Counted from the stretch's first letter, positions 43,353 to 62,687 are shown. The stretch is DNA of 64,000 nucleotides from Anaerohalosphaeraceae bacterium (GCA_037479115.1 JBBFLK010000010.1:1-64000); one strand, 5' to 3'. Program-made: numbers and translations. Notes: generated from the sequence alone by a model not told the origin.

Positions 43353-43624
43353 CCTTTCCTTTCTTGAAACCCCGCAGTCAATATCAGAACGTCCTTATTG
43401 TAATCAAAGGGCGCTGAAAAGCCAGTTTTAGACAAAAACAAAGAAAAAGACAAAAACAATTTTTTTCTTTCCCTGCCCGTCCAAAAAAGATATAATTTAT
43501 AGGACTTAGACAAGAATTAACCAATCGCTAATGGGGATTCGGATTGTCGTAAACTTGGATTGCATTTCTTCCGATGAACATCCTAATGAGAACTGGAAGG
43601 GACTTTTTTAAAACCGGAGGTCTT

Positions 43625-46600
43625 GTGAAACGATTTCTTCTCGTCCTACTGGCATTGTCGTTGTCCATTTGCGCAGCCGCCGAGATGGTTCACCGCTACT
43701 CCTTCAACACGAATGCCAACGATTTGGTTGGCACTGCCCATGGCGTATTAAAAGGGACAGCGGCCGTTTCCGGAGGTGCCCTGGTCCTGGACGGCTCCAA
43801 TGCCTGGCTGGAGCTTCCCGCGTCCGTCATCGGCATCAATAAGTATCACAGCATTACAATCGAAGCCTGGTTCACCTTGAACGTCTCAACCGGCTGGAAC
43901 CGGCTTTTCGACTTCGGAGATACCTACGCTGATGCCGGGGGATACTATCTTTTTTACAGCCCCTCGGCCGGCGGCAGCGGCTCTCGATTCTGCATCTCCA
44001 CAACCGGTTTCCCCGGCTATCAGACGGGGGAAGAATCGGTAAATGCCTCGATTGTTTCCTCCGGGGCAGCCACTCACATCGCCTGCGTGTATGACGGAAT
44101 CAATCGTCAGATGCGAATCTACCGAAACGGCTATCTGGCCGCTACAGCAAGCAATATCACACATTTACTGACTGATGTGCGGACGGCGTTTGCTTTTATC
44201 GGAAAATCCTGCTACACGTGGGACCCTCTTTTGAATGGGTCCGTCGATGAATTCCGCATCTACAATATCCCGTTTGATGCATCAATGGCCCTGGCCAGTT
44301 ATCAAGCCGGTCCGAACTCTCCCATCAGCACTTACGCCGTTCCGTCCAATCCGAGTCCGGCCAACGGTCAAAACACCGGCATCCTGCCGACCCTCACCTG
44401 GGACGCCGATCCCAACCCGGCTATTTTGTACCATCGTGTATATCTGGGGACAGATTACAAAACCGTTCTGACGGCCACCACGACTACAACCGGGGTTTAT
44501 CAAACTACAAAGCCCTCTTCAGACAGGACGTTTACCCCGTCCGCTCCACTGGAAAAAGACCAGATTTATTACTGGCGCATCGAAGAAGTCACCTCCTCCG
44601 GATACATTTTCAGCGGCCCGGTCTGGAGTTTCCGCGCCGTCAATCCCAAAGCCAACAATCCGAATCCGATATCCGGGGCAATGGGAATCTCTCCGGCCGG
44701 TGTGACCCTGCAATGGGAGGCCGGATACGAAGCCGTCGGACACCGCATTCTGTTCGGCACCTCTCCTTCCGCCCTTCAGGTGCTTGAGGAAAATTATCCG
44801 CAAACATCATATTGGGTCGGTCCTCTGACGGCGGGAATCGATTATTTCTGGCGGATTGATGAAATCGCCGCCTCCGGTCCGCCTGTTATAGGCGACGTCT
44901 GGATGTTCTCCACCAGCGATGTCATTCCGGCCTGTCTGCCGGGTGATTTGGATGGAAACTGCGTCGTGGATTTAAATGATTTGTTCCTCTTTGCTCAGCA
45001 ATGGCTCCGGACAACGGACTGCCGCGGATACGACTGTGCCGACTTTGACAACAATCAAACGGTCGATTTGCAGGACTTCTCCGTCGTCGCCGCCGGCTGG
45101 CAAAACAGCGGCAAACCCCTGATTGTCATCAACGAAATCCATTTCCATCCGGATTCCAACAAAGAACCGGTTGAATTTATTGAACTGTATAACGCCGGGG
45201 CCCAGCCGGTCGATTTGAACGGCTGGTATTTTGAAGATGCTGTCGAATACCGTTTCACAGAGTCCTTCGTGCTGGCACCGGGCTCTTTTGCGGTGATTGC
45301 GGGCAATCCGGCCGCCGTCTTTCAAAAGTTTGGAGTCTCTGCTTTCGGTCCCTGGCAGGGCAAACTCAGCAACGAAGGCGAGCGAATCGTCCTGCGAAAC
45401 GCTCTGGGACAGAAAATCGATGAGGTCACCTACGGAAGAGGCTTCCCCTGGCCGGTCGCCGCCTGCGGCGAAGGGGCCTCAATGGAGCTGCTCAATCCCT
45501 ATCTGGACAACGATTTGGGAGGCAGCTGGCGGAGCTCCGGCTATCAGCCGAATGCGACGCGCCCGGAACTGGCCTTTGGTCCGCCGACCCCGGGCCGAAT
45601 CAACAGTGTTCTGACCAATAACGCCCCGCCGCAAATCCGTCAGGTTCGGCACACTCCCAAGCAGCCCAAATCGACGGAGCCGATTGTTATTACAGCCAAA
45701 ATCACCGACCCGGACGGCGTGGCTTCCGTCAATCTGAAAGTCCAAATCGTCCTGCCGGGACAGTACATCCCCGCCTATCTGCCGATTCCCATCGCCTCCC
45801 TGCTGGCCAATCCGCATCAGATTCAGCCCCAAAATCCGGCGTTTGAAGACCCGGCCAACTGGCAGAGCTATCCGATGCGGGATGACGGAACCGGCGGAGA
45901 TGCCGTCGCGGGCGATTCCATTTACACCGCGGTCCTGCCGGCCCAAATCAACAGAACTCTCGTGCGCTACCGCATCGAGGCCACCGACAATACCGGCCGC
46001 TCGGTCCGAGTTCCCTACGCCGATGACGGTTCGCTGAACTTTGCCTGTTTTGTGTACAACGGCGTACCGCCCTATGTAGCCAGCAAAGATACCGTACAGC
46101 CCTCCGGACCGGGCTATGTGTACAGCTCGGAGATTCTCACTTCCGTTCCGGTGTATCATCTGATTACCCGGGCGGAAGACTTCTTCCAATGCCACGGCTA
46201 CAACAGCGCCGACCGAATCGATCAGGGCACCACCAACTACAACAATCAGGAAGCCGGCAAGGTCTATAACTGGTCCGGCACCTTCGTGTATGACGGCGAG
46301 GTCTATGACAACATCGGCTATCGGCTGCGGGGCGGAAACGGACGCTACAACTACGGTCAGGGCGGAAAACGCTCGATGAAGTTCCGGTTCAACCGCGGCA
46401 ACTACTTCCAGGCCCGCGACCTGTACGGCAACAAATTCCCCAACCGCTGGCAGCATCTGGTTACCGCCAAAATGTTCGGCAACCGCCTCCAGGGCCGCTA
46501 CGCCATCAACGAAGTGCTCGATATGATGCTCTGGAATCAGGTCGGAGTCCCGGCTCCAATGGGCTGGTGGTTCCACTTCCGCGTAATTGACGGCCCCGAG

Positions 46601-49600
46601 GAAGCCCCCAATACCCTCAACGGACAGTATGAAGGCGACTTTTGGGGCCTGTATCTGGCGTGGGAGGATTATGACAACGCCTTCCTCGAAAATCACGGCA
46701 TGCCCAAAGGCAACCTTTACAAACTCTCGGACAAAATCTACGAAGGCTGGCGGCAGCGGCGGTACCAGGGCCCTGATGCCGTAGATGACGCCTCTGATTA
46801 TGAAAACATCCGCTGGAACCTGAACGCCGAGGCAACCGCTCAGCAGGTCCAGGCCTGGCTGGATGTGGATATGTGGATTCGCTACCACACGGTTGTGGAG
46901 GCCGTTCGGCATTATGACATCTTCTCCGGCCCCAATTGTTTCCACTGTCTGAAAAACGCCGCCTGGTACTTCTATCCGGACTACAAACCGGAAAACCAGT
47001 ACTGGGGCCGTCTGTGGATTCTGCCCTATGATGTCGACGACACCTGGGGGCCGTTCTTCAATCAGGGAGTTGACCACGGCAAAGCCGCCGTGTTCGACCA
47101 ATACTACGTCACGGAAGGCCAGCCCGTCCAGCGAACGATTCAGCCCGAAAAAGCCCCGCTCCGGCAGGCCTATCGGAACTACATCCGCGAGTTTGTTGAT
47201 TTGCACTGGAAGCCGGAAATCATCAACGGAATGATTGATGAGCTGGCTTATCATATCTCCCAGCTGGTGCCGGCAGACCGCGACCGGTGGCGGCTCAACC
47301 CCCTTCCGGAAGGCGCCCGGGATGACGGTCCGCTGAGCAATGTGGTGGCGGATTTGAAAAAATTCGCCTGGCAGGGCGGAAGCTGGACCGGCGATCCGTG
47401 GTTCGGAGACCCGCCGTGGCCGGGTACCGTGGCCAATCTCGAAGCCCTCGCCGGGGCCGAAGGCGATTCTACCTCTATTCCCTATACGCCGACGATTTCC
47501 TACATCGGGACCGCCGGTTATCCGCTCAACGACCTGCGGTTCCAGACCAGTCCATTCAATGACCCGCAGGGCAGCAATACCTTCGGAGCCATCCAGTGGC
47601 GGATTGCGGAACATCGGCTCAATTTTTCCGTCCCCGCCGCCACAACCGAACTGACGCTCGTTCCCCAGGAAAGCCAGTGGCGCTACTTCAAAGGCACTCA
47701 GGAACCTTCCAGCGTGTTCGGGGAATGGAGGCAGCTGCATTTCAATGATGAAGAGTGGCTCATCGGGCAGACGGCCATCGGTTATGGAGACCGCGACCTT
47801 AATACCATCCTGACCGATATGAACCGCAACTACTACACCGTCTATCTGCGCAAGAAATTTGAAGTGCCCAACAAAAACTTAATCCAGTCGCTCAAGCTTC
47901 GCGTCCGGATTGATGACGGCTGCATCATCTGGATTAACGGGGTCGAAGTCGCGCGTCTGTACTGCACCGCCGGCGACAAATACTACAACAGCCTGACCGG
48001 AAGCACCAACCACGAGGCGGATGATGCGACGGCCTATGAAGAAGTGGTCTTGACCGGGCCCTATCCGTATCTGCTTACCGGCGAAAACATAATCGCTGTC
48101 CACGGCCTGCAGGTGTCCACGACCAGCAGCGATTTCTCTGTGGATGTCTCCCTGATTGCCCAAACCACCGAACCGGTGCAGCCCGGACTGGCCTCTCAAT
48201 CGAACCGCTATGAAATTCAGCCGGTCTGGGTCAGCGAGGAAATCACCGACCCGGCCAATCGGACCATCCAGATTCCTGGCGAGGTCCTTCGCACGGGCCG
48301 CACCTACCGTGTCCGATGCCGGATGAAAGACAACACAGGCCGCTGGAGCCGCTGGTCGGAGCCGATCGAATTTGTCGCCGGCCGGCCAATAGGAGCAGAC
48401 CTCCTGCAGTACCTGCGAGTCAGTGAGCTGATGTATCATCCGGCCCCGGACCCGCTCGGCCGCTATGACAAAGAGGAGTTTGAATTTATTGAACTGACCA
48501 ACATCAGCACTGACAAAACGCTGGATTTAAGCACCGTGTCCATCAGCAACGGAATCACCTTCTCCTTTGCCGGGGCTTCCGTCACAACCCTGGCTCCCGG
48601 TGACTATGTGCTGGTGGTTCGAAATCGAAATGCGTTTAATCTGCGTTACCCGGGTCTGAACTCCAAAATCGCCGGCCAGTATTCGGGCCGTCTGAACAAC
48701 GACGGAGAGCAGATTGACATCTCCGATACCTGGAATGGGATGATTGTATCCTTTACCTACAACGACGGCTTCGGGTGGCCGCAGGCGGCGGACGGCGCCG
48801 GACATTCTCTTGTGCCCGCCGGCTGGTGGACCATGGAAGACCAGCAGGCCGGCATCCTTGATTACGGCGGAAACTGGCGTGCGAGCGCTTATATCGGCGG
48901 CTCCCCCGGCGCCCCCGACCCGACTCCGCCTTCCTCGCTGCTGATCAACGAGTTTATGGCCCATACCGACTTCAGCGACCCGATGTATCCGGGCTATGAC
49001 AGCAACGACTGGATAGAGCTGTATAATCCGACGGCTTCTCCGATTGCTTTTGACGGGTCCTGGTATCTGAGCGATGAGATTACCAACCTGAAAAAATGGG
49101 CCATTCCGACGCAGTCTGTTCCGGCCTACGGCTTTGTCAGTTTTGACGAGGTCACCGGCTTCCACAATCCGCTCACCAGCGGCTTCGGTCTGGACAAAGC
49201 CGGAGAACGAATCTTCCTGTCCTATCTGCCCGGCATCGTCGGAGTGGACCGGGTCGTGGACTGCATCCGTTTCAAAGGGCAGGAAAACGGCATCTCGATG
49301 GGACGGTATCCGGACGGCGGCGCCTACTGGTTCCGGATGACCGGCACACGGGGGCTCCCGAACTCCTATCCGCTGGCGGACCTTGTTATCTCAGAGCTGA
49401 TGTACAATCCGCCGAATGCTATCGGCGCGGAAGAATACATCGAACTGTTTAACCCCACCAGCCGAACGATCGTTCTGACCAGCCCTGACGGCTCCGGCAA
49501 CTGGAGGCTGGACAATGCCGTGTCGTTTACATTCCCATCCGGACTGTCGATGGCACCCGGGGCCAGAATCGTCATCGTTCCCTTTGACCCGGTCTTCGAA

Positions 49601-49924
49601 CCCGGCCGTCTGGATGCCTTCAATGCCTATTACGGCTCTTCGCTGGCGGCCGGATTCAACGTTTTCGGCCCCTGGAGCGGCAATCTGTCCAATGGAGGCG
49701 AACGGCTGGCCCTCGAAAAACCGCAGGCGTCCGATATTCCGGGGGATCCGTCGGCGATTTCCTGGATTGTCATCGACCAGGTGTACTACAGCGATTATCA
49801 TCCGTGGCCGGCTGAAGCGGACGGACAGGGTGCTTCTCTGACTCGGCTCTATCCGTTTAATCCGGCCCGTTCCGGAGATGACCCGACAAACTGGACGGCT
49901 GCTGCTCCGACTCCCGGCTTCTAA
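43625..49924 (+). CDS. Giant secreted CotH-kinase protein with LamG, dockerin and four lamin-tail domains
   Basis: 2099 residues from a GTG start 4 bases after GGAGG. The signal peptide (KRFLLVLLALSLSICAAAE) depends on this start. Order: LamG jelly roll (about 20-230), two FN3-like segments (240-435), a dockerin-like pair (LPGDLDGNCVVDLNDLF, DFDNNQTVDLQDF; about 437-495), lamin-tail domain 1 (498-640), a beta domain, and the CotH kinase core (about 840-1215). The core has LRGGNGRYNY, KRSMKFRFNR, MPKGNLYKL, VRHYDIFSG and ILPYDVDDTWG. Then come a galactose-binding-like domain (about 1350-1510) and lamin-tail domains at about 1597, 1772 and 1919. CotH proteins are atypical kinases first described from spore coats. 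The Asp residues expected in the active site are present. Confidence 0.85.
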   Translation: MKRFLLVLLALSLSICAAAEMVHRYSFNTNANDLVGTAHGVLKGTAAVSGGALVLDGSNAWLELPASVIGINKYHSITIEAWFTLNVSTGWNRLFDFGDTYADAGGYYLFYSPSAGGSGSRFCISTTGFPGYQTGEESVNASIVSSGAATHIACVYDGINRQMRIYRNGYLAATASNITHLLTDVRTAFAFIGKSCYTWDPLLNGSVDEFRIYNIPFDASMALASYQAGPNSPISTYAVPSNPSPANGQNTGILPTLTWDADPNPAILYHRVYLGTDYKTVLTATTTTTGVYQTTKPSSDRTFTPSAPLEKDQIYYWRIEEVTSSGYIFSGPVWSFRAVNPKANNPNPISGAMGISPAGVTLQWEAGYEAVGHRILFGTSPSALQVLEENYPQTSYWVGPLTAGIDYFWRIDEIAASGPPVIGDVWMFSTSDVIPACLPGDLDGNCVVDLNDLFLFAQQWLRTTDCRGYDCADFDNNQTVDLQDFSVVAAGWQNSGKPLIVINEIHFHPDSNKEPVEFIELYNAGAQPVDLNGWYFEDAVEYRFTESFVLAPGSFAVIAGNPAAVFQKFGVSAFGPWQGKLSNEGERIVLRNALGQKIDEVTYGRGFPWPVAACGEGASMELLNPYLDNDLGGSWRSSGYQPNATRPELAFGPPTPGRINSVLTNNAPPQIRQVRHTPKQPKSTEPIVITAKITDPDGVASVNLKVQIVLPGQYIPAYLPIPIASLLANPHQIQPQNPAFEDPANWQSYPMRDDGTGGDAVAGDSIYTAVLPAQINRTLVRYRIEATDNTGRSVRVPYADDGSLNFACFVYNGVPPYVASKDTVQPSGPGYVYSSEILTSVPVYHLITRAEDFFQCHGYNSADRIDQGTTNYNNQEAGKVYNWSGTFVYDGEVYDNIGYRLRGGNGRYNYGQGGKRSMKFRFNRGNYFQARDLYGNKFPNRWQHLVTAKMFGNRLQGRYAINEVLDMMLWNQVGVPAPMGWWFHFRVIDGPEEAPNTLNGQYEGDFWGLYLAWEDYDNAFLENHGMPKGNLYKLSDKIYEGWRQRRYQGPDAVDDASDYENIRWNLNAEATAQQVQAWLDVDMWIRYHTVVEAVRHYDIFSGPNCFHCLKNAAWYFYPDYKPENQYWGRLWILPYDVDDTWGPFFNQGVDHGKAAVFDQYYVTEGQPVQRTIQPEKAPLRQAYRNYIREFVDLHWKPEIINGMIDELAYHISQLVPADRDRWRLNPLPEGARDDGPLSNVVADLKKFAWQGGSWTGDPWFGDPPWPGTVANLEALAGAEGDSTSIPYTPTISYIGTAGYPLNDLRFQTSPFNDPQGSNTFGAIQWRIAEHRLNFSVPAATTELTLVPQESQWRYFKGTQEPSSVFGEWRQLHFNDEEWLIGQTAIGYGDRDLNTILTDMNRNYYTVYLRKKFEVPNKNLIQSLKLRVRIDDGCIIWINGVEVARLYCTAGDKYYNSLTGSTNHEADDATAYEEVVLTGPYPYLLTGENIIAVHGLQVSTTSSDFSVDVSLIAQTTEPVQPGLASQSNRYEIQPVWVSEEITDPANRTIQIPGEVLRTGRTYRVRCRMKDNTGRWSRWSEPIEFVAGRPIGADLLQYLRVSELMYHPAPDPLGRYDKEEFEFIELTNISTDKTLDLSTVSISNGITFSFAGASVTTLAPGDYVLVVRNRNAFNLRYPGLNSKIAGQYSGRLNNDGEQIDISDTWNGMIVSFTYNDGFGWPQAADGAGHSLVPAGWWTMEDQQAGILDYGGNWRASAYIGGSPGAPDPTPPSSLLINEFMAHTDFSDPMYPGYDSNDWIELYNPTASPIAFDGSWYLSDEITNLKKWAIPTQSVPAYGFVSFDEVTGFHNPLTSGFGLDKAGERIFLSYLPGIVGVDRVVDCIRFKGQENGISMGRYPDGGAYWFRMTGTRGLPNSYPLADLVISELMYNPPNAIGAEEYIELFNPTSRTIVLTSPDGSGNWRLDNAVSFTFPSGLSMAPGARIVIVPFDPVFEPGRLDAFNAYYGSSLAAGFNVFGPWSGNLSNGGERLALEKPQASDIPGDPSAISWIVIDQVYYSDYHPWPAEADGQGASLTRLYPFNPARSGDDPTNWTAAAPTPGF

Positions 49925-49929
49925 AGCGC

Positions 49930-52900
49930 TTAATTGCCTGGAGCGGGCAGTCCGGCCCGCCAGTTGATAACGTCATCCCCGTACTGGGCGGGAACAATCC
50001 GTTGCAGGGAATGACCGCCGCCGTCCGCACTGGTCGGCCAAGGCGGCGCATCATCGTAGGAAATCTGTTCCACACAGATCCAGAAACGTTCCCTGCCGTA
50101 TTCCTGATCTCCAGGCCGAACCAGCCGAATCGTCTCTCCGCCGTTATCGAGTTTTGTCCCGCCGGCAAACGGCCCTAAAACCTGCACGCCCGAAGGCATC
50201 GTACCGTAATACGCCGTAAAAGCCGTCGGATTTTCCGCCACAATCAGAATCCCGCCGGCGGGAATTGTCGTACCCGCCGGAAACACAAAATCAATTCCCC
50301 GGTCAAACCTCCACGGAACCGACTCGGTGATGAAATTGCCCGGAGCAATTTCGGTCGAAACCTCGTCCTGCAGCACAACCGGCTGAGAACTGATATTGCG
50401 CAGTTCCAGAAACTCTCCCCCTGTATTGGCGGCGGACGGATGATACTGAATCTCCGAAATCACCACAGGCCCCACCAGCGGATAGGCATTGGCCGCTCCC
50501 GGCGTCGGACTGCTCATCGCCGTAAAAGCCGTGCCCCCGTCCAGCGTGCTTTTCTGATAGCGTCCGAAGGTAACCCCTGTGGCGGAGGCTCCGAAACTCT
50601 GTGCCGCCTCATAGCCCCCGATTTCCCCGTTCAGACCGCTTCGCAGATAAACGGTTTCGCCGCCTTCGCTGAGGGCAAACGGCTGATTCACACCCGGGGC
50701 AGACGGATTCCCAAAATGCAAATCCTCATAAAACACCAAATAGCCGCCGGCGGGCACCGTTGTTCCTGCAGGAATCTCATACTTTTTGATACGACTTTCA
50801 TCTCCTGTGCTGTCGCTGAGGAACCAGCCGCCGATGGCAATCGGCTGAGACGTCGTGTTGTACAATTCAATCCAGTCCGGCTGTCCGCCGTGAGAATGGG
50901 CCAGCAGTTCATTGATTACAATCGCCCCCGGGTCCGGCACCATCCCCGAATCGTCCGTTCCCGGTGAACCGCCGGCCAAGGCACTGGCCCGCCACCCGTC
51001 CTTTCGGCTCCACGCCCCCAAATCCGTCTGAGCGGGGTTGCGGACCGTCAACGAAAAACCCTGTCCGTCCGTAATCGGATACCAGCTGTCCTTGTAGGCA
51101 AACTCCTGAATGACCGCCCCCAGGGCATCCTCCAGACGAATCGTCTCTCCGGCATTGTCCAGCCGGCCCGTATATTCTCCGGCAATCCGACCGCTGAAGG
51201 AAGGATACCGCTGGAGAAAAGCCGCCCGATTGACAACGACGACAATCCGCTCACCGGCGGCCAGAGTCTGGGGCCCAAAGGCAAAATCTATTCCCTTGGT
51301 AAATCGAACCAGATTTAGATTGATGGTCTCCGGACCGATATTGACCAGTTCGATGAATTCGTGATTTGGGTCCGGCGGATTGTACATCAGTTCCGAAACC
51401 CGCAGATTCTGTTTGACCGGCCCGACCGCGTAAACCGCTTCATTGAGCACGCTCCACTGGCCGGTGCTGCTTCGAATCCTCGCCTTGACGGGAACGCTGG
51501 CCGTCAGCTGGATCGGACCGGTATAGGCCGCCGCCGTCGGGGCAATGCCCGCCGGAATGGTTGTATAAACGGAAGGCGCTTCCAACTCCGCCGAAATCAG
51601 AAAATCGGAACTGGTGAGATTTACGTTCAGACCGTGAATGGCCAGAATGTTCGTCCCGGCCCGCAGTGCGCTTCTATACGAGGAAATATCAAAAGAATCC
51701 CACGCAGAGGAGGCCTCTCGATTGGCGGTAGCCGCCGAGTTCCAGCTCAGGGAAGCAGGGGCGTTTACCCGCCTGACTTCGATTCCGTTCAAAAAAGCCA
51801 CAAAACCGTCGTCATAGCGAACCCGCAGCGTCAGTGTGGTATAATGCGGCAAAGCGGCGCCGTCCACAGTGAACGGAATCCGGATATAACAGGTTGTATT
51901 CTTGTTGTACATCGCCGCTCCGACATCAATTCCAATCATGCTCTCATAGCCGGTCTGCCGTTCGTAGCCGACCCCGCCCGTGCCGCCGGTCCAGCCGGCA
52001 TCATTGAAAGGTTCGCTGCTGCCCCGCCAGGCCGTCCCGATATCCCCTGTGGGGACCAGCACTTTCTTCGGGGCGCTGTCGGGCACAACAAACCCCTGCG
52101 CAACCAGCTGGGTGGATGAAGGCAGACGCGGGTCTGTGCCGTCCAGCGTATAGTAAAGCGTCCCCGAAGGGGTGGATTGCGTCATTGTCAGAATCGAGCC
52201 GGAGCTGACATATCCGCCGTGCTGGTACACCCCATTGATATAAAAAATCGGATAACCGAACGATGTGCTGAATAAATTATTGTTGGCAAAGGCCGCCAGG
52301 ATATACGGTTCACGCTTGGGAATAAAAATATCCGGCACGTAGCGGACCGGAAACGCCGTCGTTTCCGGCAGCACAGCAGATACCTCACCGAAGACCTCCC
52401 ACCACTTCGACAGAAGATTGGCCTGAGTCAGAACCCCTCCGTTGCGAAAATGCCGGTGCACCCGGTCGGCAAACATCTGCCGAAACTCCGGATTGTTCCG
52501 CAGGGCCCGGTACAGCTGAGAAATCGGACACCAGGACAGGTTGTTCAGCCCTGTCGGAGATGTCCAGCTGGGAAAATGCTCAAAAGAATTTTTCTGCAGA
52601 TTTTCCCCGTTGTTTCCGAATATCCACGTTTCCGCCAGTCCTTCCGCATCCCAAATGCTGAATGCAAATTTCCCATCCGGAGTCCTTCGCCGATGCACAT
52701 CCCAGTTGTTGCCGGGCCAGTCAAAATTGCCGATGTAATTCTGAAGAATCAGCATATCGATAAAGGACGGAAGGTCCAGCCGGCTTGCCACATACTCATA
52801 ATCAGCCATATTGCTCAGATTGCGGTTGTTGGCATACCAAAGCAGACTGCTCCAGGCCGCATCGTCCCCGTCCCGCACGCCGGACTGTGTAATGACGTCA

Positions 52901-54510
52901 AAGTCGTCTTTGGTGTTGTACCATTCCTGATAAAACTCCTTGTCACCGCGGGCGGTTGGATTGTAATAGCCGCGATAGACGCCATTGATGTACAGATTGG
53001 CAAAGAAGCCGGTCACCTGCGCATGCCCCATGTCCCGAAACAGCCGACGGGCCCATTCATCCTTGACAAACGGCGTGCAGGCGTCGTTATGACCCGCGCG
53101 CAAAACAATGCTCTCAAACGAATCCACATTCAGAAACGGAAACAGCGGATACTCCAGCCGCCCTGTTCCGTACACATTTCGAAACCAGAGATTGAAACTG
53201 AACTTGTTGGTGTTCCAGCCAGGCCACCAGTTTACCCAGCAGGTAATCCAGTCCTCCCCGCGCGTATAGCGGGGCCGCGTAAAATCGCTGCCGTGAACCC
53301 GAATCCCGCAATCCTGCTGAAAAGCCGCTCCCGTATTCCGATTCAGATATTCAAACGAGACGGGCCGCTCATAGCTTCGTCCGCGCTGCAGCGGATTGTT
53401 ATAGCTGCCCGGGCCGCTGGACTGCCAGACGCCGTCGCTGTATGTGCCGCCGACAATCGCCATCACCCCATCCGGCTCGTACAGAGATTTCTGCGGGTCT
53501 CCGACAATGGAGATAACCGGCATCGACCGTATCGCTGCAGAAGCCCCGAAAAGGTACGTGTGCGTGCCGACAGGACTCGGCTTCCAGCCGGTCTTGACCG
53601 CCGCCGCACGAATACAGCGCGTGGAAGAGACCGAAATCGGTCCCGTGTACCGCACGGCTGACGCCGTTGGGGCCTCATTTTCAATCGGAGTGCTGCTGTT
53701 GGTTGTATAATAAATCGTCACCCCAGGCGTATCACAGCTTAAAATCAGGCTGAACGGTGCATCATAAAACCCCCGCTTGTGGCTGAACTCCACATCGCCG
53801 ACAAGACCGCTGTATGCGCTGCTGTTGGCCGCTCCGGGGGTGGGCACAGCAAAAAACCGCTGGTCAGAACCTCCATCCGGCCAGCGTCCGTACGAAAGAT
53901 TGGTTGTCTGGGTTCCGAAAACGACGGTATCAATCGGCTTGACCCCGTCCGTATCAAACAATCCGATTTGCTCGCCTGCCGCACTCAGACTGAATGAGGC
54001 GTGCAGTCCGGGACTGTCCTGAACGTGCCCATCCGCCCAGACCACCAAAAACCCCTTTGGAGGAATCGTCGTTTCCGACGGCCGACCGAAGGGAAACCGC
54101 CAGGCGGTCGGATTGTTCAGATTGTCGGTCAGATACATCCCGGCCAAATCAATCGGCACATCGCCGGCATTGTAAATCTCAATCCAGTCATCAAAATGTC
54201 CCTGCGGATCGCTGATGCCGCTGGCGCTGTTGCTGGATGCCATAAATTCATTAATCAGCAGCGGCGGATGATACAAATCGGTCAGCCAGTTCATCGCAAA
54301 CTGCTGGAAATCCGACAGGGTCACGCCGGAAAGACTGTCCAAATCCGCACAAAACAGACCGGAACAGGACACGTCGGTCAGCCACTGTTCTCCAAAAATA
54401 ACCAGGTCGGTCAGGTCCACCCGCCAATCCTGATTTAAATCGCCGACCGGATAGGAACCGCCTGCGGCCGCCGCCAAAGAGACAGCCGCCCACAGCAGAA
54501 ATCGTTTCAT
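49930..54510 (-). CDS. Giant secreted CotH-kinase protein with N-terminal dockerin and four lamin-tail domains
   Basis: 1526 residues. Signal peptide about 1-18 (MKRFLLWAAVSLAAAAGG); dockerin-like pair at the N-terminus (VGDLNQDWRVDLTDLVIF, ADLDSLSGVTLSDF; 22-75); lamin-tail 1 (83-235); chitobiase-C-like segment (245-320). The CotH kinase core is at about 330-700: CGIRVHGSDFTRPRYTRG, YPLFPFLNVDSFESIVLRAG, DWPGNNWDVHRRR and FSIWDAEG. A second chitobiase-like segment (YYTLDGTDPRLPSS), a galactose-binding-like domain and lamin-tails at about 1033, 1197 and 1348 follow. Last gene of the VTC-DUF4956-HlyD-TolC operon (27 bases after TolC). Convergent with the other CotH gene, 5 bases apart. Putative kinase Asp/Asn residues are kept. 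Confidence 0.85.
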   Translation of the reverse strand: MKRFLLWAAVSLAAAAGGSYPVGDLNQDWRVDLTDLVIFGEQWLTDVSCSGLFCADLDSLSGVTLSDFQQFAMNWLTDLYHPPLLINEFMASSNSASGISDPQGHFDDWIEIYNAGDVPIDLAGMYLTDNLNNPTAWRFPFGRPSETTIPPKGFLVVWADGHVQDSPGLHASFSLSAAGEQIGLFDTDGVKPIDTVVFGTQTTNLSYGRWPDGGSDQRFFAVPTPGAANSSAYSGLVGDVEFSHKRGFYDAPFSLILSCDTPGVTIYYTTNSSTPIENEAPTASAVRYTGPISVSSTRCIRAAAVKTGWKPSPVGTHTYLFGASAAIRSMPVISIVGDPQKSLYEPDGVMAIVGGTYSDGVWQSSGPGSYNNPLQRGRSYERPVSFEYLNRNTGAAFQQDCGIRVHGSDFTRPRYTRGEDWITCWVNWWPGWNTNKFSFNLWFRNVYGTGRLEYPLFPFLNVDSFESIVLRAGHNDACTPFVKDEWARRLFRDMGHAQVTGFFANLYINGVYRGYYNPTARGDKEFYQEWYNTKDDFDVITQSGVRDGDDAAWSSLLWYANNRNLSNMADYEYVASRLDLPSFIDMLILQNYIGNFDWPGNNWDVHRRRTPDGKFAFSIWDAEGLAETWIFGNNGENLQKNSFEHFPSWTSPTGLNNLSWCPISQLYRALRNNPEFRQMFADRVHRHFRNGGVLTQANLLSKWWEVFGEVSAVLPETTAFPVRYVPDIFIPKREPYILAAFANNNLFSTSFGYPIFYINGVYQHGGYVSSGSILTMTQSTPSGTLYYTLDGTDPRLPSSTQLVAQGFVVPDSAPKKVLVPTGDIGTAWRGSSEPFNDAGWTGGTGGVGYERQTGYESMIGIDVGAAMYNKNTTCYIRIPFTVDGAALPHYTTLTLRVRYDDGFVAFLNGIEVRRVNAPASLSWNSAATANREASSAWDSFDISSYRSALRAGTNILAIHGLNVNLTSSDFLISAELEAPSVYTTIPAGIAPTAAAYTGPIQLTASVPVKARIRSSTGQWSVLNEAVYAVGPVKQNLRVSELMYNPPDPNHEFIELVNIGPETINLNLVRFTKGIDFAFGPQTLAAGERIVVVVNRAAFLQRYPSFSGRIAGEYTGRLDNAGETIRLEDALGAVIQEFAYKDSWYPITDGQGFSLTVRNPAQTDLGAWSRKDGWRASALAGGSPGTDDSGMVPDPGAIVINELLAHSHGGQPDWIELYNTTSQPIAIGGWFLSDSTGDESRIKKYEIPAGTTVPAGGYLVFYEDLHFGNPSAPGVNQPFALSEGGETVYLRSGLNGEIGGYEAAQSFGASATGVTFGRYQKSTLDGGTAFTAMSSPTPGAANAYPLVGPVVISEIQYHPSAANTGGEFLELRNISSQPVVLQDEVSTEIAPGNFITESVPWRFDRGIDFVFPAGTTIPAGGILIVAENPTAFTAYYGTMPSGVQVLGPFAGGTKLDNGGETIRLVRPGDQEYGRERFWICVEQISYDDAPPWPTSADGGGHSLQRIVPAQYGDDVINWRAGLPAPGN

Positions 54511-54537
54511 GGTTTCCCGCCTTCCTCTCCTTCTGTC

Positions 54538-56190
54538 CTACGGCTGAATACCGGCCGATGACGCCGTCCGCACCTCCCATCCTCCGCCGGATTTCACCCA
54601 CAGCATTCCGGTATCCCGATAAAACTGCAACAGGGCCGTCGAATACGCAAAAACGGCCTCCGTAAAGGCCCGATGGGCCTGATAAGAATCCTTCTGGGCA
54701 TCGAGGACATCGCGGCTTTTGGCCCGGGCAACCTGCATCAGCTCGAGGGTCTTTTCCAGCCGCTCCTGTGCCAGCCGGCAGGCCTCCTTTTGAACCTGAT
54801 ATCGCTGCCGGGCTTCCTGACAGTCCCGATAGGCCTTCCGCACCTCCAGAACCACCTGCTCGGTCAGCTGCTGATGAATCCGCTGCTGCTGCGCCCAGGC
54901 AATCAGGGCCCGCTTGTAGTTATTTTTCTCCCTTTCCCGGTCCAGCGGCAGGTCCAGCCGAAGCGTTGCCTCGTAGCGGTCGCGAACCCGCTGCAAATCG
55001 CCCGGGTCGGCCCCGAACGCATACCGTCTGGCGCCGTCGTTGGCGGGGCTGTAAAAACCCACGAAGGTCAAATCCGCCTTCAGGGCATCCGCCGCTATTT
55101 CTGCATGCCGCTGTGCATCGAGCGTGCGGTCAAAGGCATTGGCCAAATCCAGACGCTGATTCAGGGCCGCCTCAATTGCCTGCTCCTCCGTCAGAGGCAG
55201 CTCGCGGAGCCCATCGGCCAGGGCCGCCCATTCATTCACATCCGGTTCAATCGGCGCCTCCTGCGGAATATTGAGCATCCGTTTGAGCACATCTTTCTGG
55301 GTTTCATACTGCTGCCGTGCCTGAAGGTAGCTGTCCCAGGCGCGGATTTTGTCCTGATGGGCCTGCTCCAGTTCAAACGCCGCTAAACGGCCGGCCTGAA
55401 CCAGCGGAGCCATCCTGTCATAGATCGACAGCATCTGCAGGTAGTGCTCCCGGCTGTATTTCAGCTGCATCTGATAAAAAAGCAGGCGGTAATACTCCGT
55501 CACGACAGACACCAGAAAGGTCTGGCGAAACCGATTGAAGTCCCGAATGGCATACAGCGTATCCTGCTCAGCCTGCGTCAGGGCCTCCAGAACAACCTTT
55601 CGGTCCGCCCCGCGAAGAAGCGGCTGGGTCACCGCCGCCTGAAAGATAGTCTGCAGACCGCTGCGGAAGTCCCCCGACAAGACATCCATATAGCCGACCG
55701 ACAAACCGCTTGTCAGAACCGTACCGCTCGCCAGCAGTCTGCGGATGCCTCCTTCTCCGGAACCCCCCAGGGCCTCCCGCCCGCCCTCCCCTCCCTGGTC
55801 GCCTTCTTTGGCATATCCCCCCGTGGCCCGCGCAAACGGCGTCCACTCATACAAATGCTGCGCATCCCGCAGATTCAGGGCCGCCAGATACAGCTGCTCC
55901 TTGGCGGTCTGATATTCATGGGTCCTCGTCACCGCCAGCTCGGCCGCCCGGGCCAGCGACAGAACAGGGTTTTGTTCAAATTCCTGGAGGCGCTCCGGCC
56001 GGCTGGGAGATGAAAAGGGGTCTATCCGGTAATCTGCTCCGTCTCCGAAAGACTCCTTCCAGCGGTCTTCCAAAAGGGAATACACAACGTCATCCGTCTG
56101 ACGGCTCACTCGTTCCGGGTCCAGCGAACATCCGGCAAACCATAAAAGCAGATAACAAATCCCCCCGGCTGTGAGAACCGTGTTTTTCAT
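54538..56190 (-). CDS. TolC-type outer-membrane channel lipoprotein
   Basis: 550 residues. Lipoprotein signal with lipidated Cys 21 (LLLWFAGC). Long coiled-coil helices with OEP-family repeats: LSLARAAELAVTRTHEYQTAKEQLYLAALNLRDA in the first half and the related QAIEAALNQRLDLANAFDRTLDAQRHAEIAADAL in the second, the internal duplication of TolC-like trimers. Forms the outer-membrane duct of a tripartite conduit. The partner adaptor gene is immediately upstream (35 bases) and no inner-membrane ABC or RND pump is encoded; the DUF4956 protein takes that place in the operon. Confidence 0.87.
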   Translation of the reverse strand: MKNTVLTAGGICYLLLWFAGCSLDPERVSRQTDDVVYSLLEDRWKESFGDGADYRIDPFSSPSRPERLQEFEQNPVLSLARAAELAVTRTHEYQTAKEQLYLAALNLRDAQHLYEWTPFARATGGYAKEGDQGGEGGREALGGSGEGGIRRLLASGTVLTSGLSVGYMDVLSGDFRSGLQTIFQAAVTQPLLRGADRKVVLEALTQAEQDTLYAIRDFNRFRQTFLVSVVTEYYRLLFYQMQLKYSREHYLQMLSIYDRMAPLVQAGRLAAFELEQAHQDKIRAWDSYLQARQQYETQKDVLKRMLNIPQEAPIEPDVNEWAALADGLRELPLTEEQAIEAALNQRLDLANAFDRTLDAQRHAEIAADALKADLTFVGFYSPANDGARRYAFGADPGDLQRVRDRYEATLRLDLPLDREREKNNYKRALIAWAQQQRIHQQLTEQVVLEVRKAYRDCQEARQRYQVQKEACRLAQERLEKTLELMQVARAKSRDVLDAQKDSYQAHRAFTEAVFAYSTALLQFYRDTGMLWVKSGGGWEVRTASSAGIQP

Positions 56191-56225
56191 GGATTTCGGA
56201 GGTTCCTGTTCATAAAAACCGACGG

Positions 56226-57392
56226 CTAAATGCCGCGAATTCCCACCAGTTCATTCGGGAGCAGCTGCATATCCGGATGCACCGGAATCCGAACGGGTCG
56301 GCCCCATTCCGGAATCGTCGGATTTTTCCAGAGCCGTTCCGGCATCAGTTCCACCATTGGGCCGATTTCAGCCACCTCGGAACGCAGGACCTTTCGGGGA
56401 GCGGACGTCTTGATGATTTCGACCGGCTGACGCAGTGTGATGGAAGCGCCTTGTTCCTGAGGCACCCAGGCCGTCACAAAATCGACGGACGGGGCCACCA
56501 GTGTCAGAATCGGCATATCCCGGCTGACGGTCTGGCCGGGTGTACAGCCGACGGAGGCAACAATCCCATCAAAAGGAGCCTCGAGAACCACATCAAAATG
56601 CACGGCCGAAAGCTCCTCCAGCCGCTTTTCCTGCTGAACAATGGCCCGCCGAAGCGGCTCCAGAGACAGCATCGGCTCCGGAGAAACCGAACCAGCCGAA
56701 GCCCGGAAGGCCTCCAGACGCTCCTGAAGAGTCTGATAATCCTGTCGGGCCTGCTCCAGCCGCTGCTGGTCCTGAGCAATCTGAACCGCCAGGGCCTCCG
56801 CCTGAACCCGGACTTTCTGCAGTTCGTACGGTTCTATCGCCTTCCTGGCCAACAGCTCTTCGAGGACCCGCTGTTCGTTTTCGAGGTCTTTGAGCTGAAT
56901 GCGAGCCGGCTCAAGACGCGTCTGAATCTCCAGAATCAGCAGGCGAGTTCGTTCTGCATCCAGGGCCATCTGGTGCTCGCGATAGAGCTGCTCGAGGCGC
57001 TCGCGTGACTGTCCGGCGGCCAGCTGTCGAATCATCTGTTCGGCCTGCAGTTTCCGATATTCGAGCTCCGTCAGGGCCGCCGCTTTCTCCGCTTCCAGCT
57101 GGGCCCGCGTCCGCTCAATTTCCGCCGGCGCCAGAAGCCGCAGAACCGCCAGGGGCTGTCCCCGGCGGACTGACTGATACAGATGAACCGGCACCGAGAT
57201 GACCCATCCGGAATCCGGTGCGGTGAAGACACAGGTCTGCGAACCGGCGATTCCCACCGTTGAAAACCGCCCGTGACGATAAAAGAAAAGATAACAAACC
57301 GCCGCCAGCGCCGCCAGCCAGACCAGTACCGGCAGCAGCCCCGTCAGGATATGCCCCTTTCTCTTCGAAATGATTCTCCGGTCAGAGTTCAA
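56226..57392 (-). CDS. HlyD/EmrA-type periplasmic adaptor protein (TTG start)
   Basis: 388 residues: one N-terminal membrane helix (about 15-38), lipoyl/beta-barrel halves (TAPDSGWVISVPVHLYQSVRRGQPLAVL and VVLEAPFDGIVASVGCTPGQTVS), and a long antiparallel coiled coil between them (about 90-250, rich in Gln/Glu/Leu/Arg). This is the membrane-fusion protein fold linking inner-membrane partners to TolC. The TTG at 57392 is supported by AGGAG 7 bases upstream and overlaps the end of the DUF4956 gene by 11 bases, which implies coupled translation. Confidence 0.87.
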   Translation of the reverse strand: MNSDRRIISKRKGHILTGLLPVLVWLAALAAVCYLFFYRHGRFSTVGIAGSQTCVFTAPDSGWVISVPVHLYQSVRRGQPLAVLRLLAPAEIERTRAQLEAEKAAALTELEYRKLQAEQMIRQLAAGQSRERLEQLYREHQMALDAERTRLLILEIQTRLEPARIQLKDLENEQRVLEELLARKAIEPYELQKVRVQAEALAVQIAQDQQRLEQARQDYQTLQERLEAFRASAGSVSPEPMLSLEPLRRAIVQQEKRLEELSAVHFDVVLEAPFDGIVASVGCTPGQTVSRDMPILTLVAPSVDFVTAWVPQEQGASITLRQPVEIIKTSAPRKVLRSEVAEIGPMVELMPERLWKNPTIPEWGRPVRIPVHPDMQLLPNELVGIRGI

Positions 57393-58080
57393 GGATTTGC
57401 TCCTGAATGGCTATGCTCAGATTCTCAATTCCTTCGATTTTCCGCAGTTCGGAAAGCATCTGCTGATTCAGAGAGGCCTTCCGCAGAGTAATCTGATAGG
57501 CGTAATCCATCCGGGAACGGTCCGGCCCGCGGCTTTGGGAAGAGGTCAGGACAATCGTCCGGCAAAACCGCCGGAGCACCTTAAAAAGCGGATGGTCCGG
57601 ACTCAGCTCGCCGTGAAAGGTAAACCGAAGCAGCGCATTGCTTGAATGAAACGCCCCGAAATCCGCCCAGTACAGATAGAGCAGCACCAGCCCGAGAACC
57701 GCCGTGCCGATGACGGCAATCGCATATCGTCCGGACCCGCAGGCCATGCCGATCACCAGAGCGCAGAACAAAAAAGCAATGTCCCGCGTGTCCTTAATCA
57801 TGTTTCGAAACCGGATAATCGACAGCGCCCCCATCAAACCGACCGCCACGACAAAGCTGCCGGCAATCGTCGTCATCACAAGGGCCACCACTATCGTAAT
57901 CACAATCAGCGACTGCACAAAGGATTTGGAATACGACAGTCCGTGATGCGTAAACGAATAAATCCACGCCAGCACCTGTCCGAGCACAAACGCCAGCAGC
58001 AGCGACAGAATCACTGTCAGAGCATCCGCTCCCGACTGCGAAGAATAATCATCAAATAGATGCCGTAATCCGTCCATCAT
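57382..58080 (-). CDS. DUF4956 multi-pass membrane protein
   Basis: 232 residues with at least four membrane helices (about 20-40, 55-90, 105-125, 128-145). The conserved core is VVALVMTTIAGSFVVAVGLMGALSIIRFRNMIKDTRD and FLFCALVIGMACGSGRYA, the DUF4956 signature. The C-terminal 80 residues form a soluble domain ending YQITLRKASLNQQMLSELRKIEGIENLSI, resembling an ACT/ferredoxin-like end. DUF4956 genes are known as neighbours of bacterial VTC-domain polymerases and CotH proteins; their role is unproven. A translocation role for the product of the VTC enzyme is an inference. ATGA overlap with the VTC gene. Confidence 0.85.
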   Translation of the reverse strand: MMDGLRHLFDDYSSQSGADALTVILSLLLAFVLGQVLAWIYSFTHHGLSYSKSFVQSLIVITIVVALVMTTIAGSFVVAVGLMGALSIIRFRNMIKDTRDIAFLFCALVIGMACGSGRYAIAVIGTAVLGLVLLYLYWADFGAFHSSNALLRFTFHGELSPDHPLFKVLRRFCRTIVLTSSQSRGPDRSRMDYAYQITLRKASLNQQMLSELRKIEGIENLSIAIQEQILEL

Positions 58081-58991
58081 TCCAGATATCGGAAGAGGAC
58101 CCCTTCCGAAAAACAGGATACAGAGGAGACATATTTGGACATTGACGACAGATTCAGTTCAAACAGGCGAATCATCGTCTCCAGCCAGGCCGGATAATGG
58201 TCCGTAAACTTGATTTCCAAAACGACAAACGGAACCGGCACGGTCTGCCAGCCCGGTCCATTCAGCGTCACCTCCAGCCCGTGCGGTTTGCGGAAATGAA
58301 GCTGCCGATCAAAAGTAACCCGCACCCGATGGTCGCCCTCCCCTTCATAGGCCTCCCGCATATACCGAACCAGAACGACCGGCTGAGCCTGCAGCGCCTG
58401 TTTGTAAAACAAAAACTGCTTGAGGGCCTGGCGGTCTTTCTCCGAGCGGCCGTGAAGGTCCAGCGTCCCCTCCAGGGCAGCCTGCAGTTCTGAGCGTTCA
58501 ACTCGAGCCCGGCTTTTGACAATTACTTTATTCACCCGCCGCTTGACTTCCAAAAACAGCGGGGTCTGCGGCAGGTCATTGTACGTTCGAATCCGCAATT
58601 TAAACCGGTTCGACTTGCCCGAAAGCGTTTCCCGGCACAGCTGAAGGTCTGGAGAGTCCCAATACAGACTCGAAATAGGGTACTGACGGTCCGGATACAT
58701 CAGGGCATATTTATCCACCGACAAATAGTGCTGAACAAAATCTCGAATGGCCTGAGCTTTTCCCTCCGTAATTCGGTACTTCAATTCATAGCGGCAGCAG
58801 GTTAAATCTTTGCGGCCCAGAGAACAGACCGGAGCGATTTCCTCCCTGGATGGGCCGGCGAGTTCTGCCTGAATTGGAGAGGGGCCGGAAAGCTCAGCGG
58901 GTTCGAGGGGAACGGTATCTTTTCCCGGCGACCTCTTGACCGGTTCTACCACCTTCTTATCTTTTCTCCCTGTCAGAAAGCTTCGAAACAT
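58077..58991 (-). CDS. VTC-domain polyphosphate polymerase
   Basis: 304 residues. An acidic/proline-rich N-terminal tail (1-60) precedes the VTC tunnel domain (about 65-300). Basic and acidic tunnel-lining motifs are all kept: ELKY (Lys 71), FKLRIRTY (Arg 133, Arg 135), LEVKRRVNKVIVKSRARV (Lys 150, Lys 159), RVTFDRQL, LEIKF (Glu 259, Lys 261) and SKY (Lys 286). The family makes inorganic polyphosphate from ATP. There is no membrane segment, so the enzyme should be cytosolic or tethered by the co-translated DUF4956 protein. First gene of a five-gene operon with its own sigma70-type promoter 144-173 bases upstream. Confidence 0.88.
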   Translation of the reverse strand: MFRSFLTGRKDKKVVEPVKRSPGKDTVPLEPAELSGPSPIQAELAGPSREEIAPVCSLGRKDLTCCRYELKYRITEGKAQAIRDFVQHYLSVDKYALMYPDRQYPISSLYWDSPDLQLCRETLSGKSNRFKLRIRTYNDLPQTPLFLEVKRRVNKVIVKSRARVERSELQAALEGTLDLHGRSEKDRQALKQFLFYKQALQAQPVVLVRYMREAYEGEGDHRVRVTFDRQLHFRKPHGLEVTLNGPGWQTVPVPFVVLEIKFTDHYPAWLETMIRLFELNLSSMSKYVSSVSCFSEGVLFRYLE

Positions 58992-59373: not shown

Positions 59374-59383
59374 GATAAGCATT

Positions 59384-59457
<74 letters not shown>

Positions 59458-59471
59458 ATCAGGTTTTGTCT

Positions 59472-59500: not shown

Positions 59501-59512
59501 CCGCTCATTCAA

Positions 59513-59929
59513 TTATTTTTCGAGCATCCGGCGAATTTGTTCGGCTATCTGAGCGGCCTTTCCTTCCGGATAGGAATAGGAAGGCCAGTTCCGGAACAGC
59601 CCATCCCCTGTCTTTCTGGGAATAATATGAAAATGCAGATGCTCGACAATTTGTCCGGCCGCTCGGCCGTTGTTGCAAAGCACATTGTATCCATCCGCTT
59701 TCATCGCCTTTTGGACGGCCCCGGAAACTTGAGATAAAACGGCCGCCAGACTCGAAAGCGTCGAGGCCGGGCATTCATCCAGCCGGTTGTAATGCCGCCT
59801 GGGGATTACCAGTGTATGCCCATCCGATACCGGGCCAATATCCAGAAAGGCCAGAACCTCCTCGTTTTCAAAAACCTTTGCGGAGGGAATCTGCCCTGCG
59901 GCGATTCGGCAAAATACACATTCATCCAT
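59513..59929 (-). CDS. HIT-family nucleotide hydrolase/transferase
   Basis: 138 residues: ECVFCRIAAGQIPSAKVFENE at the start (with a CxxC), DGHTLVIPRRHY, and the histidine triad EHLHFHIIPR near residue 100-109. HIT proteins of this branch hydrolyse nucleoside phosphoramidates or adenylylated nucleotides (Hint/HinT type). GGGAGG lies 6 bases before the ATG. It sits 68 bases after rplQ with a strong terminator between, so expression probably depends on read-through or a weak internal promoter. Confidence 0.92.
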   Translation of the reverse strand: MDECVFCRIAAGQIPSAKVFENEEVLAFLDIGPVSDGHTLVIPRRHYNRLDECPASTLSSLAAVLSQVSGAVQKAMKADGYNVLCNNGRAAGQIVEHLHFHIIPRKTGDGLFRNWPSYSYPEGKAAQIAEQIRRMLEK

Positions 59930-59953
59930 CTGAATCCTCCCGCCTGAACCGAC

Positions 59954-59986
59954 AAAAAAAGCGGACGCAGTACCGCCGTCCGCTTT
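59954..59986 (-). terminator. Intrinsic terminator of the alpha operon
   Basis: AAAGCGGACG and CGTCCGCTTT form a 10-bp perfect stem (59958-59967 with 59977-59986), 9-base loop, followed on the minus strand by a T7 run (59954-59960). It starts 12 bases after the rplQ stop and ends 25 bases before the HIT start. Confidence 0.9.
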
Positions 59987-59997
59987 GGAAAATCCGC

Positions 59998-60435
59998 TTA
60001 GGACTTCTTGGAGGTCTTTTCCGGTTCTGATTTGCCCTGCTCAACCAGCTGAAGCAGAACCAGACGCCCGTTGTCGCCGAGCCGGTGCCTGGGCAGGCGA
60101 ATAATTCGCGTATAGCCGCCCGGCCGGTCCAGGAAACGGGGGCCGATATCACTGAAAAGCTTTCCAATCACCGTGCCCACCTTGACCATTCGGCCGTCCT
60201 CTTCTTTGTAAATCGCCCGGTCGTTCAGCAGACGAAGTGCCTGCCGACGGGCGTGAAGATTCCCCTTTTTGGCCAGCGTAATCAGCTTCTCGGCAAATCC
60301 GCGGACCTCTTTGGCTTTTTCCAGCGTCGTCGAAATCGTCTCATGCTCAAACAGAGAAGCCGCCAGATTCCGACGCAGGGCGAGCCGATGCTCGCTGGTT
60401 CGTCCCAATTGTCTTCCTGCTATCCGATGACGCAT
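59998..60435 (-). CDS. rplQ: 50S ribosomal protein L17
   Basis: 145 residues. MRHRIAGRQLGRTSEHRLALRRNLAASLFEHETISTT is the highly conserved L17 start, with the later GGYTRIIRLPRHRLGDNGRLVLLQLV. A charged tail (GKSEPEKTSKKS) extends beyond the common core. The ATG at 60435 follows GAGG; an in-frame TTG two codons earlier is unlikely. Last gene of the alpha operon, 38 bases after rpoA. Confidence 0.97.
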   Translation of the reverse strand: MRHRIAGRQLGRTSEHRLALRRNLAASLFEHETISTTLEKAKEVRGFAEKLITLAKKGNLHARRQALRLLNDRAIYKEEDGRMVKVGTVIGKLFSDIGPRFLDRPGGYTRIIRLPRHRLGDNGRLVLLQLVEQGKSEPEKTSKKS

Positions 60436-60473
60436 ATCCAATCACCTCAATTTTGTCTTTTTTCCGCTTTGTT

Positions 60474-61472: not shown

Positions 61473-61574
61473 ACATAGGCCTCCAGCAGCGGGCGAATGT
61501 TCTCAGTGCTTTTCTTCGGGCCGAAAGGAGAAGAAAACCACTCTCTGGAATCCGCCCGGTTTTCCAATAATTCG

Positions 61575-62207
61575 TTATTTCGAACAGAACTCCACAACCA
61601 GATGTTCTTCAATCGCCAGCTGGACATCCTCACGGGACGGCAGAGCCACGACAGTGGCCGCCGGCTTGGAGGCATCCAGCTGAAGCCAGCCCTGCACCTG
61701 AAAATTCGGATTGGCCTCCAGCTGGGCCTTGACCAGCTTGCGGGTCCGTTCCGAGTTCTTCAGGGTAATCTTGTCGCCGATATTGACTAGTCGGTCCGGA
61801 ATATCCACCCGCCGGCCGTTCAGATAAATATGCCCATGGGCAATCAGCTGCCGGGCCGCCTTGCGGGAGGGAGCAAAGTTCAGCTTAAACACCACATTAT
61901 CCAGACGCCGTTCGAGAAGCTCCAGCAGCGTACGTCCAGTGTTGCCTTTCCGGCGGGCGGCTTCGCGGAAAATGCTCATAAACTGCTTTTCCATCAGCCC
62001 GTAATACCGTTTGACCTTCTGCTTTTCGCGAAGGCGAACGCCGTAATCGCTGTAGCGTCCTCTCCGCCAGCCGTGCATTCCGGGAGCCATGCTCTTTTCC
62101 CGCCGCTCAATCGCACACTTGGCGGTTTCGCACCGTGTGCCCTTGAGCATCAGCTTCATTCCTTCTCGCCGGCATAACCGACATGTAGGTTCAAGATAAC
62201 GTGCCAT
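61575..62207 (-). CDS. rpsD: 30S ribosomal protein S4, zinc-binding form
   Basis: 210 residues. MARYLEPTCRLCRREGMKL contains the first pair of four cysteines (Cys 9, 12, 26, 31), the C+ zinc-ribbon version of S4. The S4 RNA-binding domain is seen as LLERRLDNVVFKLNFA and ARQLIAHGHIYLNGRRVDIP. An assembly initiator of the 30S subunit and, in some bacteria, translational repressor of its operon. 48 bases after rpsK. Confidence 0.97.
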   Translation of the reverse strand: MARYLEPTCRLCRREGMKLMLKGTRCETAKCAIERREKSMAPGMHGWRRGRYSDYGVRLREKQKVKRYYGLMEKQFMSIFREAARRKGNTGRTLLELLERRLDNVVFKLNFAPSRKAARQLIAHGHIYLNGRRVDIPDRLVNIGDKITLKNSERTRKLVKAQLEANPNFQVQGWLQLDASKPAATVVALPSREDVQLAIEEHLVVEFCSK

Positions 62208-62255
62208 ATTCTGTCAGCTTCCTCTTTGTAAGGTTCAATTGTTCCGTTGTCCGGA

Positions 62256-62636: not shown

Positions 62637-62687
62637 AACCAATCAACTCCTCTATTCCGTCTCCGCTGCGACGGCTGGTCTTAGCGG

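Follow-up and report, generated by a model that had tools for sequence, protein, structure and literature searches.

A conserved VTC-DUF4956-HlyD-TolC gene cluster as a possible pump-less polyphosphate export system in diderm bacteria

A five-gene operon and its surroundings

We analyzed a stretch of 64,000 nucleotides (hereafter, the window) from a planctomycete, Anaerohalosphaeraceae bacterium (GCA_037479115.1 JBBFLK010000010.1:1-64000), in which five genes on the minus strand, coding for VTC, DUF4956, HlyD, TolC and CotH/lamin-tail-domain (LTD) proteins, form a single run. The VTC and DUF4956 genes overlap by 4 nt and those of DUF4956 and HlyD by 11 nt, and gaps of 35 nt and 27 nt separate HlyD from TolC and TolC from CotH, respectively. 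Our ORF calling agrees exactly with the original prediction in these coordinates, overlaps and gaps, and all five families score above the curated Pfam cut-offs. The features of the locus are the following.

58077..58991, minus strand: VTC-domain protein, predicted soluble polyphosphate polymerase (304 aa, triphosphate-tunnel fold, PF09359)
57382..58080, minus strand: DUF4956 membrane protein (232 aa, PF16316)
56226..57392, minus strand: HlyD-type periplasmic adaptor (388 aa, TTG start, PF13437 and PF16576)
54538..56190, minus strand: TolC-family outer membrane channel (550 aa, PF02321)
49930..54510, minus strand: CotH-kinase/lamin-tail-domain secreted giant, last gene of the run (1526 aa, PF08757 and PF00932)
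43574..49924, plus strand: second CotH/lamin-tail/LamG giant (2116 aa, PF08757, PF00932 and PF13385)
59164-59135, minus strand: sigma70-like promoter TTGACT-18-TATAAT upstream of VTC (11/12 match)

A single sigma70-like promoter had been predicted ahead of the operon, and one was indeed found there; this site is the best of six candidates in the region, although shuffled sequence yields a mean of 3.8 promoter-like sites, so the match by itself is no proof. It lies downstream of a tRNA-Met gene (59383-59458). The operon adjoins an essential, stable region on the minus strand (59505-63968) with what appear, from their translations, to be ribosomal-protein genes, rpoA and a gene for a HIT-family protein. 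Upstream of the CotH pair, the region 18144-43352 encodes many carbohydrate-active enzymes (GH106, rhamnogalacturonan lyase family 11, GH97 and GH2) together with secreted LamG/CBM96 proteins. Elsewhere in the window, ARAGORN placed a permuted tmRNA at 6017-6598 (minus strand) with an overlapping tRNA-Ala call, which may be real or a false positive.

The two CotH giants are convergent, with 5 nt between their stop codons. The protein that closes the operon matches PF08757 with 62.9 bits (cut-off 23.8) and PF00932 (LTD) with 190.6 bits in four stretches, and its neighbor at 43574-49924 matches PF08757 with 57.2 bits (cut-off 23.8), PF00932 with 171.6 bits and PF13385 with 67.3 bits. Their additional domains differ in part, LamG being found in one giant and CHB_HEX_C_1 and Fn3-associated domains in the other. 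The operon protein starts with a Sec-type signal sequence, as judged by eye, and contains the motif NFD..NNW..WDAE, which by eye resembles the D..N..D motif of B. cereus CotH; a phmmer search of the PDB with its CotH domain returned no match. The protein had also been described as carrying a dockerin, a label that we do not retain, as the resemblance of its N-terminal stretch to Dockerin_1 (PF00404) is sub-threshold (13.9 bits against a cut-off of 22.9, E 0.065).

Properties of the polymerase, the membrane protein, the adaptor and the channel

The VTC protein scores 157.6 bits with PF09359 (cut-off 23). The family profile matches Vtc4 structures with an E-value of 9e-15 and prefers Vtc4 over the other Vtc subunits, and the top fold matches of the structure model (pLDDT 83) in the PDB are the Vtc4 entries 3g3r/3g3q (E about 1e-12). 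In an alignment with Vtc4, R133, R135 and E259 correspond to R264, R266 and E426, the residues exchanged to inactivate that enzyme (PMC9911596); all three are identical across 42 sequences. We infer that the product of the VTC protein is polyphosphate. Apart from VTC, Pfam matched no domain in this protein, SPX included, and it has no predicted TM segment; the protein may therefore work like the eukaryotic VTC complex, but it is not a member of that group, as it has neither SPX nor Vtc1-like TM helices. In bacteria, PPK1 and PPK2 are usually held responsible for polyphosphate. Since PPK1 is also present in this genome, the second polyphosphate enzyme calls for a distinct role.

The DUF4956 protein matches PF16316 with 56.8 bits (cut-off 30.6) and an NCBIfam MgtC/SapB-like family with an E-value of 1.7e-10. 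It has four predicted TM helices, an RFR motif (R90-F91-R92) and a C-terminal ACT-like domain. The structure model (pLDDT 82.7) consists of four long helices and the C-terminal ACT-like domain, for which 3ibw is the ACT fold match, and agrees with how the streptococcal relative SIR_1592 has been described, namely as an MgtC-like protein with four TM segments and an ACT domain (PMC12345266). In the fold search with this model, which as a monomer cannot show a pore, the ACT domain alone was matched and the TM region matched no solved channel. R90 and R92 are found in 100% of the compared DUF4956 proteins, HlyD-linked and CotH-linked alike, whereas W39, H45, G47, Y50 and S51, in the turn between TM1 and TM2, are near-invariant only in the HlyD-linked lineage, although part of this contrast is expected as that lineage is narrower than the comparison set.

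The HlyD protein matches PF13437 (HlyD_3) with 45.4 bits and PF16576 (HlyD_D23) with 41.8 bits, and has one N-terminal TM helix, a coiled-coil hairpin, and lipoyl and beta-barrel domains; its profile matches EmrA/MacA/HlyD-like chains in the PDB. The TolC protein matches PF02321 (OEP) with 77.4 bits in two stretches, and its N-terminus carries an apparent lipoprotein signal (LWFAGC). Of the three parts of a tripartite TolC exporter, the adaptor and the channel are present, but no ABC, RND or MFS pump is linked to them in the window operon.

Conservation of the HlyD-linked cluster and a second architecture

We surveyed 198 genomes of the class, 49 of which encode DUF4956, and annotated the hit regions with profiles grown from the window proteins. 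The order VTC, DUF4956, HlyD and often TolC recurs in several families and orders of the class, mostly with overlapping or closely spaced genes. A wider scan with one genome per species gave 80 loci, with DUF4956 annotated in 79, mostly from Phycisphaerae/Sedimentisphaerales, and in addition from Sumerlaeota, Hydrogenedentota, Rhodothermota, Verrucomicrobiota, Acidobacteriota and a deltaproteobacterium (Myxococcota), so that the HlyD-linked arrangement occurs in at least seven bacterial phyla. In 76 of the 79 loci, the gene immediately 3' of DUF4956 is HlyD, the remaining three being at a contig edge, and TolC lies within four genes in 46; the adaptor and the channel are hence neighbors of VTC-DUF4956 in related genomes, as the original prediction implied. 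VTC was called directly upstream of DUF4956 in 73 loci; in the other six, VTC was found by tblastn in four (L113, L153, L155 and L158, where its apparent absence is an ORF-calling artefact), was truncated at a contig edge in one, and lies two ORFs away in one. Because the gene order recurs in related loci of several phyla, it is not due to chance, and this conservation together with the single origin described below rules out a chance neighborhood.

To what extent a pump accompanies the adaptor was screened by motif and hydropathy within five genes of 110 HlyD-linked clusters, a local rather than genome-wide screen of a partly redundant set, as some loci are present in both collections, and no recurrent pump was found. 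An ABC-type ATPase occurs in a single locus (counted twice), and proteins with at least eight predicted TM segments are only sporadic and mostly on the opposite strand. The earlier suggestion that the adaptor has no partner pump nearby therefore stands for these neighborhoods. In two loci (L097:2743-4656 and L098:7397-9541), the gene after VTC-DUF4956-HlyD, on the same strand, codes for a secretin-family protein in place of TolC; this may serve as another type of outer membrane channel or be an unrelated neighbor. A predicted arylsulfotransferase gene (L153:6478-8571) lies upstream of a VTC-DUF4956-HlyD-CotH-TolC cluster. Other neighbors (leucyl-tRNA synthetase, isocitrate dehydrogenase, secretin, T2SSE and others) vary from lineage to lineage and were set aside.

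Among 60 further loci of the phylum, VTC is among the displayed neighbors in 55, HlyD directly follows DUF4956 in 14, and most of the others have CotH nearby. A second architecture, CotH-VTC-DUF4956 without HlyD, also recurs, and CotH lies directly beside VTC-DUF4956 in most HlyD-free loci. The genome of the window has such a locus itself on another contig (C1, 89000-108900), where VTC-DUF4956 has an upstream CotH gene with a higher Pfam score (233.6 bits) and neither HlyD nor TolC; three of the four CotH proteins of the genome are located in its two VTC-DUF4956 loci. In the genus, CotH is directly downstream of TolC in three of four genomes. The original prediction counted CotH as part of the cluster, which is correct for the window operon, but the gene is not a fixed component, being found within five genes in 32 of the 79 HlyD-linked loci; CotH is a frequent, not an obligatory, partner of the HlyD-linked cluster.

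Single origin and co-variation of the HlyD-linked lineage

The maximum likelihood tree of 127 DUF4956 sequences, a quick tree that has some long branches elsewhere and is built without Gram-positive sequences, places all 60 HlyD-linked sequences on one branch (SH-aLRT 99). Four other sequences fall on this branch, two of them from contig ends, one with HlyD about 8.5 kb away and one from a CotH-linked locus. When 101 genomes of the class were searched with a profile of the linked HlyDs, 17 genomes had a match of at least 109 bits and all 17 also encode DUF4956, whereas all other HlyDs scored at most 95 bits, a specificity that is in part by construction, as the profile was built from linked HlyDs. 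No member of the linked-HlyD clade was found by this search in those of the 101 genomes that have no DUF4956. In addition, over 61 loci the pairwise distances of VTC are correlated with those of DUF4956 (r 0.91), and the distances of either protein with those of HlyD (0.79-0.80), these values still including the shared species phylogeny.

These results support the notion that the adaptor/channel pair, which has no linked pump, has long been a genuine partner specific to one DUF4956 lineage, as would be predicted if DUF4956 were the inner-membrane component of a conduit. Of the original proposal that DUF4956 serves in this way for polyphosphate, the association is borne out by the tie of HlyD to one DUF4956 lineage and by the Vtc4 residues and fold of the polymerase, while the product, its export and a contact between DUF4956 and HlyD are what we infer from it.

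Comparison with known systems

The eukaryotic VTC complex (Vtc1/Vtc3/Vtc4; PMC9911596; PDB 8i6v, 7ytj and 3g3q) resembles the system described here in its TTM-fold polymerase with the same catalytic residues, in having a separate TM module as the expected path of the polymer and, under the mechanism proposed below, in the coupling of synthesis to transport. However, the polymerase here has no SPX domain and no TM helices of its own, the TM module is DUF4956 (MgtC-like with an ACT domain), for which we found no match to the Vtc1 bundle in either sequence or fold, and the path would continue across the periplasm and the outer membrane by way of HlyD and TolC. EmrAB-TolC, MacAB-TolC and HlyBD-TolC share with our cluster an HlyD-family adaptor and a TolC-family channel, but here no pump is linked, and in the gene order DUF4956 stands where the inner-membrane part would be. 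In synthase-dependent polysaccharide exporters with an adaptor-like periplasmic part (e.g. Alg44), the shared principle would be that polymer synthesis itself powers export via an adaptor and an outer membrane channel. Unlike in these, polymerisation here falls to a VTC enzyme, with inorganic polyphosphate as the expected polymer.

That VTC, DUF4956 and CotH genes are neighbors in other bacteria, as had been noted, is published for Gram-positive Pel loci (PMC7112168; SIR_1592-1594 in PMC12345266), in which CotH, polymerase and DUF4956 genes are mutually adjacent. Our cluster differs from these loci in that PelG was not found, HlyD/TolC are added and DUF4956 belongs to a separate lineage, in a tree without Gram-positive sequences; the closer equivalent of the Gram-positive accessory module is the HlyD-free C1 locus of this genome. 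While the CotH-polymerase-DUF4956 synteny was not found outside Pel loci in the earlier work (PMC12345266), it is widespread outside them among the loci studied here. Literature searches for polyphosphate with TolC export and for the polymerase with HlyD, from whose coverage subscription papers and preprints were mostly absent, found no description of the HlyD-linked form, in line with the original remark that no pathway with the full gene set had been described, and found no biochemistry of bacterial VTC-DUF4956 pairs. What is already known is therefore the CotH-polymerase-DUF4956 trio of Pel loci, and what appears to be new is the HlyD/TolC-linked lineage, possibly a new secretion route.

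Proposed mechanism and alternative explanations

We propose that the operon encodes a coupled polyphosphate synthase-exporter, analogous to the VTC synthase-translocase of yeast but lengthened across the periplasm by HlyD and TolC, and give this reading an even chance of being correct. In yeast, synthesis and translocation are coupled, the Vtc4 polymerase being placed above a TM channel with positive charge (PMC9911596). In the analogous scheme for this operon, the cytosolic VTC protein would build polyphosphate from the gamma-phosphate of ATP on the cytoplasmic side of DUF4956, which, probably as an oligomer, would move the growing chain across the inner membrane as the yeast Vtc1/3/4 TM bundle does; its invariant arginines appear suited to a polyanion. 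A dedicated HlyD docked onto DUF4956 would join it to TolC, the chain would exit the outer membrane without an ABC, RND or MFS pump, and polymerisation itself would power the transport. Outside the cell, the polymer might serve as matrix or as a phosphate donor for CotH-type proteins. For the wider claim that this is a dedicated pump-less, polymerisation-powered machine for trans-envelope polyphosphate secretion that is present in seven or more diderm phyla and partly coupled to surface proteins of the CotH type, our confidence falls slightly short of even.

Three observations would be accounted for by such a mechanism: the adaptor goes with DUF4956 and not with a pump, monoderms manage with the HlyD-free form (PMC7112168), and a second enzyme is retained despite the presence of PPK1. 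Left unexplained are the lack of TolC in some clusters, for which a shared TolC encoded elsewhere is plausible, and the retention of the HlyD-free form in diderms too.

HlyD adaptors normally need a pump, and the nearest solved relatives of the HlyD studied here are MFS, ABC and RND adaptors such as EmrA and MacA. The VTC-DUF4956 pair might accordingly make polyphosphate for internal or periplasmic use, as a store or in phosphate control, with the HlyD/TolC pair serving a pump encoded elsewhere and linked by co-regulation only. That TolC is missing from a good part of the clusters (present in 46/79) would fit such a use, as would a link of MgtC to phosphate control cited in PMC12345266. However, HlyD directly follows DUF4956 in every untruncated locus, in seven phyla, from one origin and with no recurrent pump, and co-regulation alone rarely keeps such strict adjacency, so we regard this explanation as rather unlikely. 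Somewhat less probable still is that the product is chiefly a phosphate donor for surface CotH kinases, polyphosphate being delivered where ATP is scarce and used on surface proteins or glycans. The location of CotH beside VTC-DUF4956 in most HlyD-free loci, within five genes in 32/79 HlyD-linked ones and, for this genome, of 3/4 of its CotH proteins in the two VTC-DUF4956 loci, speaks for it, and so do the occurrence of the same trio in Gram-positive Pel loci (PMC7112168) and the changed Pel level and reduced aggregation of mutants in the CotH and DUF4956 genes there (PMC12345266). On the other hand, no CotH gene lies within five genes of the cluster in over half of the HlyD-linked loci, and our literature search found no report of polyphosphate as a CotH donor, which counts against this explanation.

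In streptococci and clostridia, pelDEADAFG is contiguous with genes for CotH, a polyphosphate polymerase, DUF4956 and DUF4832 (PMC7112168, PMC12345266), which might further suggest that the cluster belongs as an accessory unit to Pel or another exopolysaccharide system and affects polymer modification rather than exporting polyphosphate. As PelG is absent from the genome, we rejected the Pel accessory module, and no polysaccharide synthase recurs beside the HlyD-linked clusters among the neighbors examined, making an accessory unit of this general kind improbable. Most improbable is that HlyD and TolC are the remnant of a type I secretion system exporting the CotH giant, even though CotH is in the same transcription run, 27 nt after TolC: type I secretion of CotH was rejected since there is no ABC ATPase gene nearby and CotH has a Sec-type signal, and most HlyD-linked clusters have no adjacent CotH.

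To our knowledge, no dedicated bacterial polyphosphate exporter has been described. If the proposed coupled synthase-exporter is correct, polyphosphate would have a direct way out of the cell, the uncharacterised DUF4956 family would gain a function, and the synthase-translocase of yeast would have a counterpart in bacteria. Such a system could also explain the phosphate supply of extracytoplasmic CotH kinases.
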